Below, in pieces: positions 46,239 to 54,620 of a DNA stretch of 64,000 nt. Positions within the stretch are counted from its first letter, which is position 1. Each line of letters starts with the position of its first letter. This DNA comes from Sneathiellales bacterium (lineage in GTDB: Bacteria; Pseudomonadota; Alphaproteobacteria; JANQFL01): positions 1 to 64,000 of the forward strand of contig JANQFL010000074.1 of assembly GCA_028277845.1 (NCBI GenBank), written 5' to 3'. The notes below the pieces were generated by a model. It saw nothing but the letters and a program-made list of their open reading frames with translations, was not told where the DNA came from and made no database searches. The position numbers and the translations under genes were made by a program.

Positions 46239-46311
46239 TCTCCAGAAATCGGTTCCCGGAACCTTGCCGCGCTATGTTGCCTACGGCGAAATGCGTGTAG
46301 ATTATGCCCTC

Positions 46312-47706
46312 ATGGAGGGCACGAACGGAAACCTGTTTCCCCTGCGCCGAAGCTTGTCGACGCGACTGTTGGTCTTGACGGTCGCGTTTGTCATGTTGAG
46401 CGAGGTACTCATCTATGTGCCGTCCATTGCGCGCTTTCGGCAGTCCTATCTCGACGAACGCCTGGCCCAGGCCCACCTAGCGACACTGGCCATGCTGGCG
46501 GCGCCCAACAACGAGGTCAACGACGAGCTGGAGCGGGAGATGCTGTTCCGGGTGGGGGCGCGGGCGATCATTCTGAAACGGCCGGCCAGCCGCTTCCTCA
46601 TGCTCAGCGACGACATGCCGGCCCGGATCGACGTGACGTTCGACATGCGCGATCCCATGCCCATGGAATTGCTCATGCACACGTTCGATGCGCTGGTTCA
46701 GCCCGACGACCGTTTGATGCGTATCATCGGCGAGGTTTCCGGCGCGACGTCGACGACGGTGGAAGTCATCTTGCCCGAAGCGCCGTTGCGTGAAGCCATG
46801 TTCGACTTCTCGTGGCGTATCCTGACCTTGTCGATCATCATCTCCCTGTTTACCGCCGGGCTGGTGTATCTCAGCCTGTCGTGGCTGATGGTCCGGCCCA
46901 TGGCCCGGCTGACGGAAAGCATGATGCGTTTCCGTCAGCGTCCGGAAGACGCCTCGCGCATCGTACAACCCTCCGATCGCCAGGACGAAATCGGCCAGGC
47001 CCAACGGGAACTGGCGGTCATGCAGAGCGCGCTGCGTGATTCACTCCGGCAGAAGACGCATCTGGCGGCACTCGGTACGGCGGTTTCCAAGATCAACCAC
47101 GACCTGCGCAATATTCTGGCGGTGGCGCAACTGGTGTCGGACCGGTTCGTCGATAGCGCCGACCCCGAGGTGCGCCGGATTACGCCCAGGCTGTTGTCGA
47201 GCATCGACCGGGCCACCAGCCTGTGCGCCCGGACCTTGAAGTTCGGCCGGGCCGACGAGCCGGCGCCGGAAAAGACCCGTTTCGCATTGCGGCCGTTGAT
47301 CGACGAGGTCGCGCTTGCCGTCGGCGGTACCGGCGACGACCATACGACCTGGACGAACGACATCGCGGACGATGTCGAGGTCTTTGCCGATCACGACCAG
47401 CTCTTCCGGGTGTTCCTCAACCTGGGTCGCAATGCCGTGCAGGCCGCCGGTCCGGAGGTTCTCATCCGGGTGGTCTGCGAACCGTGCGAGGAGGGACTGG
47501 CTATTGACGTCATCGACAATGGTCCCGGCCTGCCGGAAGCCGCCAAACAGCATCTCTTCGAACCCTTCACCGGCAGCGCGCGGGCGGGCGGGACCGGGCT
47601 CGGACTGGTGATCGTCAAGGATTTGATCTCGGCCCACGGCGGAACCGTGGACGTCCGCTCCACCGGCCCCGAAGGCACTGTTTTCCGCGTGATTTTGCCC
47701 GCATAG
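46312..47706 (+). CDS. Sensor histidine kinase with HAMP domain
   Basis: About 464 aa from ATG at 46312; the open frame extends to 46264 and no start has a clear ribosome site. TM1 (~16-37), an extracytoplasmic sensor (~40-165) without recognised domain, TM2 (~168-190), HAMP (~190-240), H-box SKINHDLRNIL with the phospho-acceptor His, N-box FLNLGRNAVQAA, G1 DVIDNGPGLPE and G2 GGTGLGLVIVKDL. The H-box with DLRN is of the HisKA type lacking a standard E/D. No response regulator is adjacent. Ends in VILPA. Confidence 0.88.
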   Translation: MEGTNGNLFPLRRSLSTRLLVLTVAFVMLSEVLIYVPSIARFRQSYLDERLAQAHLATLAMLAAPNNEVNDELEREMLFRVGARAIILKRPASRFLMLSDDMPARIDVTFDMRDPMPMELLMHTFDALVQPDDRLMRIIGEVSGATSTTVEVILPEAPLREAMFDFSWRILTLSIIISLFTAGLVYLSLSWLMVRPMARLTESMMRFRQRPEDASRIVQPSDRQDEIGQAQRELAVMQSALRDSLRQKTHLAALGTAVSKINHDLRNILAVAQLVSDRFVDSADPEVRRITPRLLSSIDRATSLCARTLKFGRADEPAPEKTRFALRPLIDEVALAVGGTGDDHTTWTNDIADDVEVFADHDQLFRVFLNLGRNAVQAAGPEVLIRVVCEPCEEGLAIDVIDNGPGLPEAAKQHLFEPFTGSARAGGTGLGLVIVKDLISAHGGTVDVRSTGPEGTVFRVILPA

Positions 47707-50961: not shown

Positions 50962-51741
50962 ATGGCTGTAAAAATGGTTGGGATGGCGTCCGAACAACTG
51001 GATGCCTTGAATCCCGCGAATGTTGTATCCGACGCCGAGGCGCGTGAAAACAATGTCCGCGTGCTTGGCGGTGTTCCCGGAGCGATGCTTGCGCGCATCA
51101 GGGACGGCGGCGCAACGCCCTACAGCTACTTACTCTGGCTTCGATTCTCCATGGTCAACATGGCGGCTTTCGCCGTTGTCGGCGTCGCCTATATGCAAGG
51201 CTGGGTCGACATGGTCCTGGTCGCCGACAACACCGGTCTCAGCCTCGTTATTCTGGCGGCTTTCGTGATCGGCTTGGCTCTTGCCGCGCACAAGACCCTG
51301 CAAACCAGCCGCGAATTGAACTGCGCCCGCGAATTCGATCCGCCGCGCTGGAGCCGCGCGGCCCGCTATCTGGAAGCGACCTCCGGCCGGAACGCCGACA
51401 GCCGCGCCATGGTGGCGTCCGCGCTGAAACTGAAACTCGCAACCCGGATTTCGATCGTCAAGCACATCGGCAACAGCCTGGTAGTGCTCGGCCTGATCGG
51501 TACGGTTATCGGCTTTATCATCGCACTGTCCGGTGTCGACCCCGATACCGTCGGCGACGTCAAGGCCGTCGGTCCGATGGTGTCGACCTTGATTCAAGGT
51601 ATGTCGGTGGCCCTGTACACCACTCTTGTCGGCGCCGTGCTGAACATCTGGCTGATGATCAACTACCAATTGCTGGCCGGCGGAACCGCCAATCTGATCG
51701 CCACGATCGTGGAATCCGGTGAGAGCCATGCCGGAGCCTGA
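50962..51741 (+). CDS. MotA/TolQ/ExbB-type proton-channel family protein
   Basis: 259 aa from ATG at 50962, which is 7 nt after AAGGAG; the adjacent ATG at 50959 is only 4 nt away from it. Four TM segments (58-78, 91-110, 170-190, 205-238). TM3 has NSLVVLGLIGTVIGFIIAL with Thr181, matching the LGLxGTVxG pore motif of TolQ/ExbB, and TM4 has MSVALYTTLVGAVLNIWL with Thr220/221. The protein should form a proton-driven motor or channel in the inner membrane. It overlaps the next gene by 14 nt; no ton, tol or mot genes are near. Confidence 0.87.
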   Translation: MAVKMVGMASEQLDALNPANVVSDAEARENNVRVLGGVPGAMLARIRDGGATPYSYLLWLRFSMVNMAAFAVVGVAYMQGWVDMVLVADNTGLSLVILAAFVIGLALAAHKTLQTSRELNCAREFDPPRWSRAARYLEATSGRNADSRAMVASALKLKLATRISIVKHIGNSLVVLGLIGTVIGFIIALSGVDPDTVGDVKAVGPMVSTLIQGMSVALYTTLVGAVLNIWLMINYQLLAGGTANLIATIVESGESHAGA

Positions 51742-52339
51742 TCTGTTCAGCGACGAAGACGACGGTGGCGCCACCGTTTTTCGCGATGTCATCATGTTGG
51801 CCCTGGCCGGGTTCGTGGCCATTGTCATCCTGCTGCTGCCGCATCTGAACCCGAAGGCCAAGGCGTCGAAGAGCGACGCCAATCCGCCGGGCAACGTCAT
51901 CGTCGAGATGCGCTGGCCCGACGATATGGACACGGATGTGGATTTGTGGGTGGAAGCCCCCGGCGATAAGCCGGTTGGCTACTCCAACAAGGGCGGCCAG
52001 TTTTTCAATCTGCTGCGCGACGATCTCGGCCGTCTCGGCGACGCCACGGAAATGAACTACGAAGTGTCGTACAGCCGCGGCATTCCGACCGGCGAGTACA
52101 CGGTAAACGCCCACCTGTACCGTAATCTGGCGGGAACGTTCCCGGTTCCGGTTACGCTGGTGATCAGCGTCAAGCGCGATATCAGCGAATCGGCGCAACA
52201 GGTTCTGACGACCCGACTCAACCTGACCCACGAAGGCCAGGAACTGACAGCCTTCCGTTTCCGTCTCGACGAGCTGGCGCAAGTGGTGTCCGGCAGTGTG
52301 CACAATGTTCAACGCCCCTTGAGGGCAGCGGAGCGGTAA
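51728..52339 (+). CDS. One-TM protein with ExbD-like Asp and YfaP/DUF2135-like domain
   Basis: 203 aa from ATG at 51728, 14 nt inside the proton-channel gene. A short acidic cytosolic N-terminus leads to one TM helix (21-40), preceded by VFRDVIMLAL, which resembles the F-x-D-V start of ExbD/TolR helices with the essential Asp (here Asp20). The outer domain does not look like ExbD or OmpA. Residues ~57-140 (DMDTDVDLWVEAPGDKPVGY and LLRDDLGRLG) resemble the YfaP/DUF2135 fold. It is probably the partner subunit of the channel protein, with an unusual periplasmic output domain. Domain match is from memory only. Confidence 0.6.
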   Translation: MPEPDLFSDEDDGGATVFRDVIMLALAGFVAIVILLLPHLNPKAKASKSDANPPGNVIVEMRWPDDMDTDVDLWVEAPGDKPVGYSNKGGQFFNLLRDDLGRLGDATEMNYEVSYSRGIPTGEYTVNAHLYRNLAGTFPVPVTLVISVKRDISESAQQVLTTRLNLTHEGQELTAFRFRLDELAQVVSGSVHNVQRPLRAAER

Positions 52340-52344
52340 TCGAT

Positions 52345-52854
52345 ATGTCGCAATTGTCAGCCTTGTTTTTTGTCGCTCTCGCCCTGGTGACCGGATTGGG
52401 ACTGATTGCCGTCTGGTCGCGGCGCAAGCTGGTTATCCGCTTTGGCGCTGTGGCGTTGACCGCGGCCTTCATCCCGCTGTCCTATGCGGCATTTTCGGAG
52501 CTCCTGAGCAAACCCAAGCCGGTGTCGCTCGAGTGGGCGAACCGCAACGCCGAGGAAGCCACCGTTCTGGCATCCCAGATGCAGGAGAATGTGGCGATAT
52601 ACATTTGGCTGGCTTTGCCCGAAGCGACGGAACCGCGGGCCTATGTGCTGCCGTGGGATCGCCGGACCGCGCAGCAATTGCAAGGCGCCAACCGACAAGC
52701 GGAAAAGACCAAGTCGAAGGTGCGTATGCGCCGGCCGTTCCAAGTATCGATCGATACCCGCGATGAACTGTTCTATGCAACACCGCAACGGTCCGGCCCG
52801 GAAAAGACACCGGGCAACGGCAACGCCATGGTTTACAACCGGTCCAATCAGTGA
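52345..52854 (+). CDS. Two-TM hypothetical protein of proton-channel module
   Basis: 169 aa, 5 nt after the previous gene. Two TM helices (about 4-23 and 33-52) are joined by a short Arg/Lys loop (WSRRKL), which puts the C-terminus outside. Residues ~55-150 form a soluble domain (EATVLASQMQENVAIYIWLAL and YVLPWDRRTAQQLQ) followed by a polar tail. No family recognised. Tight spacing argues it is the third component of a three-gene unit with the channel-type and ExbD-like proteins. Confidence 0.6.
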   Translation: MSQLSALFFVALALVTGLGLIAVWSRRKLVIRFGAVALTAAFIPLSYAAFSELLSKPKPVSLEWANRNAEEATVLASQMQENVAIYIWLALPEATEPRAYVLPWDRRTAQQLQGANRQAEKTKSKVRMRRPFQVSIDTRDELFYATPQRSGPEKTPGNGNAMVYNRSNQ

Positions 52855-52880: not shown

Positions 52881-53612
52881 CTAAATGTGCGGTGTACCGG
52901 GGGTAAAGCTGTAGCCATCGCCGTGCACGGTCTTTATGAGGCGCGGCGGCTTGCCCTTTTCGCTTTCCAGTTTGTTGCGCAGACGGCCAATCAGAACGTC
53001 GATAGCCCGGCTCGGCGCATCCAGATCCTTCCCGTAGACCTCGCGATAAAGGATTTCCCGTGGGATCACCGTGTTGGGCGACTTGAGAAAGGCGCACAAC
53101 AGTCGGAATTCCGTCGACGTGAGGGAGACCACCCGGCCGTCATCGGCCGTCAGATGGTGGCTGGGCATCGCCAGGGTCCACTCGGCAAAATGGTAGTTTC
53201 CCGCCGGCGGTTCCGATCCGGCTGCCGGCTCGGACTTGTGGGTTCGGCGCAGGACGCTGCGGATGCGAGCCAATAGCTCGCGGTTGGCGAACGGCTTGGC
53301 TACGTAGTCGTCGGCACCCATTTCGAGACCGACCACGAGATCCACGGTTTCGCCCTTGCCGGTCAGCATAATGATGCCGAGATCGTGCTTTTCACGGAGT
53401 TCCCGGGCCAGGGCCAGGCCGTCCTCGCCCGGAAGGACCAAATCAAGCAACACCAAATCAACATGCCGCTCGTCGAGAACGGCACGCATTTGTGTGCCGT
53501 CGCCGGCTTCCGATACCTCGAAGCCCTCCCGGGTCAAATAGGTGTTGAGCATTTCCCTGAGGTCGGGGTCGTCGTCTACGACCAGAATGCCGTTTCTATC
53601 CTGCGACGTCAT
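52881..53612 (-). CDS. OmpR-type response regulator (orphan)
   Basis: 243 aa from ATG at 53612; an open frame extends upstream but the receiver starts here. Receiver domain: Asp13/Asp14, phospho-acceptor Asp57 in VLLDLVLPGEDG, Thr84 and Lys106. C-terminal winged helix: LTSTEFRLLCAFLKSPNTVI, VLIGRLRNKLE and KTVHGDGYSF, typical of OmpR/PhoB. No kinase is adjacent. Convergent with the proton-channel module (27-nt gap). Its upstream region contains OmpR-like boxes. Confidence 0.92.
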   Translation of the reverse strand: MTSQDRNGILVVDDDPDLREMLNTYLTREGFEVSEAGDGTQMRAVLDERHVDLVLLDLVLPGEDGLALARELREKHDLGIIMLTGKGETVDLVVGLEMGADDYVAKPFANRELLARIRSVLRRTHKSEPAAGSEPPAGNYHFAEWTLAMPSHHLTADDGRVVSLTSTEFRLLCAFLKSPNTVIPREILYREVYGKDLDAPSRAIDVLIGRLRNKLESEKGKPPRLIKTVHGDGYSFTPGTPHI

Positions 53613-53719
53613 AGCTTTCGGCGTCCAATTGCGTGCCGAAATCTTGAGAGTGCGCCAATAGCGATAAGCATCAAAGTCACGGTCTTCGCGATCCCACTTT
53701 TTTGAATTTTCGCTCAATG

Positions 53720-54036: not shown

Positions 54037-54342
54037 ATGGCGCAACTGGACCAGGAAGCACAGGATTCATGCCGTTGGGCCGCCGAAGTCGGTGACGCGG
54101 ATGCGCAGTTCCATCTCGGATGTCTTTATGCCACGGGTCAGGGTGTGCCGCGGGATTTCGTGATCGCCCAGAAATGGCTCAATCTTGCTGCGGCAGCCGG
54201 TGTCAATGAGGCCAATTCGTATCGTGCCCGGCTCGCGCAGAACATGACGGCGACAGAAATCGCCGAAGCCGTGAGACTGGCGCGACGCTGGAAGTCGGGA
54301 TGCGTCGTCGTCTCTGGAGGAGACACATGCTACGTAAACTGA
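54037..54342 (+). CDS. Sel1-repeat protein, short
   Basis: 101 aa from ATG at 54037, with GGAG 9 nt upstream; GTG at 54010 would add nine residues. One full Sel1-like repeat: DADAQFHLGCLYATGQGVPRD then FVIAQKWLNLAAAAGV, and a second partial one with ANSYRARLAQNMTATEIAEA. No signal peptide, so it is cytosolic. Such repeats mediate protein contacts. It overlaps the next gene by 16 nt. Confidence 0.75.
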   Translation: MAQLDQEAQDSCRWAAEVGDADAQFHLGCLYATGQGVPRDFVIAQKWLNLAAAAGVNEANSYRARLAQNMTATEIAEAVRLARRWKSGCVVVSGGDTCYVN

Positions 54343-54620
54343 CCCTTGCCGCCGTGCTGGCCCTGTTCCCGTTCGCAGCGAACGCACAGTCCATGTGCAC
54401 CGAACGTACCGATATTCTGAAAGCGCTTGGCACCAAGTACTCGGAGGCCCCCGTCGCCATGGGTTTGGCCGCGAACGGAACCGTGCTGGAAGTGCTCGCG
54501 TCCAAGGACGGAACCTGGACGATCATATTTACCCGGCCGAACGGCATGAGTTGTGTTCTTGCCGCCGGCCAGTCCTGGGAATCGATTGAGAAAACGGCGG
54601 CTTTGGGTCCCAAAGCTTAG
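54327..54620 (+). CDS. Small secreted protein, hypothetical
   Basis: 97 aa from ATG at 54327, with GGAGG 6 nt upstream. A classical signal peptide (residues 1-21, cleavage at ANA-QS). The mature part has two Cys (SMCTER and GMSCVLA) that could form one disulfide and a beta-rich core with GTVLEVLASKDGTWTIIFTRP. No named domain was recognised; many alphaproteobacteria have proteins of this type. Coupled by overlap to the Sel1-like gene, with a strong terminator after it. Confidence 0.7.
   Translation: MLRKLTLAAVLALFPFAANAQSMCTERTDILKALGTKYSEAPVAMGLAANGTVLEVLASKDGTWTIIFTRPNGMSCVLAAGQSWESIEKTAALGPKA

Follow-up and report, generated by a model that had tools for sequence, protein, structure and literature searches.

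A three-gene module, termed QRT here, is proposed to encode an ion-driven motor of the 5:2 type in which the head has been exchanged and a third subunit added, and which would act on the cell envelope in its maintenance or remodelling; we put the probability of this reading at roughly 0.6. The wider proposal, to which about even odds are given, is that QRT represents a class of ion-driven 5:2 motor not described before, marked by its DUF2135 head and novel third subunit and exchanged between bacteria and their phages. Under this proposal tailed phages would have an envelope motor of their own, often in the lysis region, and bacteria would have co-opted it, for PQQ-alcohol oxidation among other functions in the envelope. 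The module was identified in a 64,000-nucleotide stretch of contig JANQFL010000074.1 from a Sneathiellales bacterium (the window), and its genes and those of the neighbourhood considered below are as follows.

46264-47706, + strand: sensor histidine kinase, flanking the region on the opposite side from the response regulator
50962..51741 (ATG 50962, stop 51741), + strand: Q, 259 aa, four-transmembrane (TM) channel/stator-ring subunit of the MotA/TolQ/ExbB family
51728..52339 (ATG 51728, stop 52339), + strand: R, 203 aa, one-TM axle-type subunit with Asp20 (F-x-D) and a DUF2135-like head
52345..52854 (ATG 52345, stop 52854), + strand: T, 169 aa, two-TM protein of no known family
52881-53717, - strand: OmpR-type response regulator, convergent with T
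54300-54620, + strand: small secreted protein of phage family PHROG-25396

Q and R overlapped by 14 nt and a gap of 5 nt separated R from T, forming a tight operon in the order Q-R-T; the coordinates and the overlap given in the initial annotation were right to the base. The window genome held only one close copy of QRT and encoded three further Q-like proteins with distant matches (E 4e-6 to 3e-4). No conserved link of the histidine kinase or the OmpR-type regulator to QRT was seen. A prophage remnant was considered as the origin of the window QRT and rejected, as no integrase, structural or lysis gene was seen among the surrounding ORFs that were examined. The sole tRNA was 10 kb off, and the window R clustered with chromosomal copies in the R tree, without starred support.

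Within the class, R as the sole query matched 58 of 385 genomes, and these covered 44 of 277 genera. At the phylum level, full-length R was found in 16 of 398 genomes, three of them outside the class, and the remaining weak matches were mostly DUF2135 domains of long secreted proteins. The chromosomal copies fell into two lineages. Lineage A included the window, named Rhodospirillales and Geminicoccaceae loci and Azospirillum megaplasmids, among them that of A. brasilense Sp7, with R identities of about 50-70%, compared to about 25-39% for lineage B. Q was located upstream and T downstream of R in both lineages, and at 40 of the 43 other chromosomal loci neither gene was more than 1.5 kb from R, an adjacency that is far beyond chance and bears out the initial annotation, in which conservation of the trio was expected. 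Among the three exceptions were a locus at the end of a contig and an isolated duplication of R, and one lineage-A genome (L004) had the order Q-T-R. The divergence of Q, R and T was strongly correlated over 111 loci (Mantel r 0.63-0.78, p 0.001), and for chromosomes only the distance correlation reached r 0.87-0.90 for Q-R and R-T, a pattern that components of a single machine, or at the least a unit inherited together, should show. An R gene duplicated in tandem with no Q nearby was observed at locus L061 (9018-10254), in a genome (G364) that contained four R copies.

Q passed the Pfam MotA_ExbB model (E 1.1e-10, 41.7 bits against a curated cut-off of 22.9), and a profile search of the PDB returned MotA/PomA as the best matches followed by TolQ and ZorA. 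Four TM segments were identified by hydropathy (57-75, 91-109, 174-192 and 215-233), with TM1 and TM2 close together in a layout of the MotA type rather than that of the three-TM TolQ/ExbB. The four helices proposed in the initial annotation were therefore upheld, as was the superfamily by the Pfam match, with the nuance that the layout and the best PDB profiles were nearer to MotA than to the suggested TolQ/ExbB. In bacterial Qs residues G177, G180, T181, G184 and T221 were invariant, T181 and T221 across 42 sequences, and G180 and G184 were constant wherever a residue was aligned in bacteria and phages. Invariance of the Thr positions, a question raised in the initial annotation, held at 181 and 221 in bacteria but was relaxed in phages to T or N at position 181 and T or S at position 221, with Asn replacing Thr181 in 12 of 71 IMG/VR Qs and in two of the four isolates aligned there. 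Asn at position 181 was a feature of many temperate-type phage Qs (e.g. L091, L099, L106, L161 and L164). These Gly and Thr residues (G180, T181, G184 and T221) are at the positions that would be expected to line an ion path in the MotA/TolQ/ExbB superfamily, and their conservation is no proof of ion flow. Small phage Qs of 137-149 aa retained four TM segments, i.e. a bare ring core, and to our knowledge are below the size of any known MotA, TolQ or ExbB.

R had one TM segment by hydropathy (21-39), and an AlphaFold2 model built from a 68-sequence alignment (mean pLDDT 90) consisted of a TM helix at 13-40 and eight strands that form a periplasmic beta-sandwich head at about residues 54-182 (56-180 in the model). 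Asp20, at the membrane entry of the TM helix, was present in the window and in 122 of the 125 family members with a residue there (lineage A 21/21, lineage B 19/22, viral contigs 77/77 and isolated phages 5/5), in line with the initial annotation. The three R proteins without it were chromosomal (L072, L079 and L076) and, judging by this substitution, may lack the usual form of ion drive. More broadly, a chromosomal R group (L072, L079, L076, L175 and L178) had lost the canonical membrane Asp and kept the head (...DPLGVMLFKALQ...), and it constitutes a natural set for testing ion coupling.

Residues W63, D70, D72, L95, D98, G101 and E112 of the R head were invariant, and the acidic cluster of D70, D72, D98, D99 and E112 was invariant or nearly so. 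D70, D72, D98 and E112 coincide with the DUF2135 signature, which indicates that the call of a YfaP/DUF2135-like outer domain in the initial annotation was right. The window R was sub-threshold against Pfam DUF2135 (PF09906; 14.8 vs 22 bits, E 0.03); an hhalign comparison of the head with DUF2135 domains gave 98.7% (E 4e-16, 120 columns), and in a profile search it was linked to the DUF2135 domains found in secreted proteins, VIT/VWA-type ones among them. On the basis of these alignments the head is homologous to DUF2135/YfaP, and R would give this uncharacterised domain a mechanical context. None of 41 R members matched ExbD (PF02472) or MotB in Pfam at E<0.1, no member matched the MotB plug and OmpA-like domain, and Foldseek of the R model retrieved nothing from the PDB at E<0.001, its best hits including none of ExbD, TolR and MotB. 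R as an ordinary ExbD, TolR or MotB was thus ruled out by profile and fold, in agreement with the initial annotation. The top Foldseek hit in the PDB was a Ca2+-bound DUF4425 sandwich (a weak match, E 4e-3), and in BFVD the head had weak matches to viral proteins annotated as BACON or tellurium resistance (E about 1e-4, TM about 0.4). The acidic cluster is a putative site that may bind Ca2+ or another metal.

Two TM segments were identified in T by hydropathy (5-23 and 29-47), and its AlphaFold2 model (pLDDT 88) had helices at 2-24 and 29-53 followed by a beta-beta-beta-alpha-beta arrangement. The TM helices are followed by a small alpha/beta domain in the periplasm and by a tail rich in proline, with a conserved P-x-K motif at its end. 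T had no Pfam match, NCBIfam and PADLOC gave nothing above threshold and no credible PDB relative was found by profile or fold search, consistent with its initial description as having two TM helices and an outer domain that fits no known family. The lineage-B T proteins were strongly diverged and initially resembled a different gene; the two sets align over their full length and have in common a P-R step (P97-R98) and the C-terminal P-x-K. At the majority of the chromosomal and viral loci a homologue of T adjoined R.

Few kinds of ion-driven 5:2 motor are known, and they have been studied closely: flagellar stators, Ton, Tol, the gliding/T9SS and Agl motors and Zorya. Each is defined by the target its periplasmic part pushes on. 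QRT resembled ExbBD and TolQR(A) in combining a ring-type channel of the Pfam MotA_ExbB family, a one-TM subunit with a membrane Asp and a third envelope protein in an operon. In contrast to these systems R had no ExbD/TolR periplasmic domain, Q had four TM segments, T had two TM helices and was unrelated to TonB or TolA by search, and no ton or tol genes were near QRT. The four-TM channel subunit, the best PDB profile match of Q, and the Asp-bearing partner are shared with MotAB/PomAB, whereas QRT had no OmpA-like peptidoglycan-binding domain or flagellar genes and the Q cytoplasmic loop was much smaller. ZorAB likewise pairs a MotA-type subunit with an Asp-TM partner, and Q matched ZorA profiles weakly, but QRT was without the long ZorA tail, the OmpA-type ZorB and ZorC/D/E and was found inside phages. 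The NCBIfam ZorA score of Q was 19.3 against a cut-off of 100, no ZorB match was obtained and no effector neighbour was conserved, and identity with Zorya was rejected on these grounds. R shared the head pattern D-x-D-L-x-V...P...D...G...E...G-x-Y with DUF2135/YfaP proteins, although those members of that family that were examined had no motor partner and were either secreted proteins or multidomain proteins of the VIT/VWA type. GldLM and AglRQS are also superfamily motors with an output domain specialised for an envelope task (PMC9389320), yet they have other periplasmic domains and a gliding or secretion role and are not known from phages. The 5:2 superfamily motors have been reviewed in the same article, and the diversity of B-subunit heads has been described (PMC12505986). 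The open full texts of journal papers yielded no description of a QRT-like module, no paper that uses the name DUF2135 and no superfamily member encoded by a phage. The QRT family, which differs in its head and third subunit and is spread over many lineages, would add an unexplored output to the 5:2 motors and, if the proposal is true, would be the first motor of the superfamily known from phages within the scope of open papers.

A scan of IMG/VR with the R profile gave 388 pattern matches, and R relatives were encoded in 344. In the best 80 of these 344 viral loci Q was present in 71, and Q, R and T occurred together within 1.5 kb in 65. As IMG/VR may hold misassigned contigs, more weight was placed on isolated phages, and R was found in 19 distinct isolated Rhizobium/Sinorhizobium phages, including 16-3. 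Q and T flanked R in all eight isolates whose DNA was examined (16-3, RHph_X2_25, RHph_TM3_3_14B, RHph_I1_18, RHph_N3_19, NV1.1.1, P10VF and RHph_I9), where R was annotated as a hypothetical or numbered protein only (p040 in 16-3, whose Q, R and T genes are p038, p040 and p042). PHROGs contained no family for Q, R or T, and no existing family from PHROGs, PADLOC or NCBIfam fitted the three proteins. Phage and bacterial sequences were intermingled within both lineages of the R tree, which implies, as read from this tree, repeated transfer of QRT between phages and bacteria.

A single-strand order of lysis genes, a trypsin-like protease and Q-R-T, often followed by an exonuclease-like gene, was common to one large contig group, the 60-kb Rhizobium/Sinorhizobium phages and a prophage-like locus (L183, genome G554), and in many temperate-type contigs the lysis genes were holin, endolysin, Rz and Rz1. 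An endolysin, often with a holin and Rz/Rz1, was located within about 6 kb of QRT at no fewer than 27 of the 85 phage loci; the count is a minimum, as many contigs are truncated. The protease, of a lipoprotein or periplasmic type (PHROG-9683; p036 of 16-3), recurred just upstream of Q in temperate phages (L099, L106, L122, L130, L160, L161 and L164). Other arrangements also occurred. In Pootjesviridae QRT preceded a late sigma factor and had no lysis gene nearby, and in the temperate phage 16-3 it was located between the tail fibre/immX genes and attP. From a reading of the translated ORFs, two loci were T4-like: in one (L082) a lineage-A cassette was flanked by a UvsX-like and a UvsW-like gene, and in the other (L144) a lineage-B cassette was near PhoH and lysozyme. 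In a T4-like group a lysozyme was about 2 kb upstream of QRT.

No conserved neighbours were found in lineage A, which includes the window, so the role of QRT there is unreadable from context. Of the 30 lineage-B loci, 15 had PQQ-related genes within about 10 kb, namely those for the PQQ-dependent alcohol dehydrogenase (TIGR03075), PQQ-ABC genes (TIGR03861/03863/03866) or pqqB/C, compared to none of the 22 lineage-A loci, some of which are on short contigs. Some of the PQQ-linked loci also had TonB-dependent receptors. PqqC was encoded in 18 of 35 lineage-B genomes compared to 64 of 385 overall (Fisher p 5e-7, with relatives non-independent; 11/18 families), and a PqqC search of the window's own genome gave no match. 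QRT could be a missing component of PQQ/lanthanide alcohol oxidation. At other lineage-B loci the module was followed by a two-component pair of the NarL type or by a gene for a lipoprotein-like product. A secreted or lipoprotein-like family with the pattern 'YFPL...W.Y....' was observed after T, sometimes in two or three copies, at L062, L066, L067, L069, L071 and L073; it belongs to lineage-B genomes without the PQQ link and is a candidate outer-membrane partner.

In the proposed mechanism Q would form a ring in the inner membrane with an R dimer as its axle, likely in a 5:2 assembly by analogy with the superfamily, and Asp20 of R would carry ions past T181 and T221 of Q. The DUF2135-type head would engage a periplasmic or outer-membrane partner, and T would sit beside the ring as a third subunit in the position of TolA or TonB, where it probably transmits or regulates motion. 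The biological role is the weakest step. A Tol-like function in envelope maintenance or remodelling is a guess, made the first choice because all of the contexts (periplasmic quinoproteins, phage lysis regions and periplasmic-type proteases) concern the envelope; the phage and PQQ-linked contexts differ, and a single common role is therefore equally a guess. In one bacterial lineage QRT would serve the periplasmic PQQ-alcohol oxidation apparatus, and in phages it would keep or alter the envelope of the infected cell late in infection, beside the lysis programme.

The phage contexts are also compatible with two other readings, both of which are considered quite unlikely. In one of these QRT would be a lysis accessory that spends the PMF before holin triggering and weakens or ruptures the outer membrane or wall, aiding or timing lysis. 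The lysis-protease-QRT order of temperate-type contigs, its counterpart in isolated Rhizobium phages and the lysozyme upstream in the T4-like group would fit such a function, but the same cassettes already contain spanins, the Pootjesviridae module is by a late sigma factor away from lysis genes, and stable non-prophage chromosomal copies would endanger cells if the module were lytic. The other is a phage-facing device for superinfection exclusion or defence of the cell or prophage, delivering force or a signal in the envelope in the manner of ZorAB. ZorA profiles among the weak Q matches, carriage of the cassette by phages and a prophage (L183) and its place between tail fibre/immX genes and attP in the temperate 16-3 argue for it, although no ZorC/D/E-type effector or nuclease partner was conserved nearby, R had no OmpA-like peptidoglycan-binding domain, the large Pootjesviridae phages also carry QRT and the chromosomal copies were not among defence genes at the loci examined.

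That QRT is a Ton-like motor dedicated to the handling of PQQ, lanthanides or calcium, and energises import or maturation in PQQ-dependent alcohol oxidation, is regarded as unlikely. It would account for the lineage-B linkage and the TonB-dependent receptors at some of these loci, for the invariant acidic cluster in the R head and for a nearest PDB fold with bound Ca2+, and in Methylorubrum extorquens lanthanides are imported by the products of a related lut cluster, among them an ABC transporter of the PQQ type and a TonB receptor (PMC7391723). However, lineage A showed no such link, phage QRT occurred without PQQ genes and half of the lineage-B loci were without them within about 10 kb. That Q and R are a degenerate pair, with the superfamily scaffold as a mere membrane anchor for the periplasmic head, is held to be very improbable. 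Loss of Asp20 in three chromosomal R proteins and of most of the cytoplasmic domain in small phage Qs would agree with an anchor, but Asp20 and the ring Thr positions survive very deep divergence and fast-evolving phages, and an anchor needs neither.

The PHROG-25396 gene at 54300-54620 was considered as a fourth component of the module and rejected, as its family is multi-copy, with four copies in the window genome, and is away from QRT in most genomes; its closeness to the window QRT is probably incidental. Relatives of this gene immediately preceded Q in several contigs from phages (L083, L086, L088, L118 and L144), and it is possibly a gene shared by phages and hosts that is interesting in its own right.
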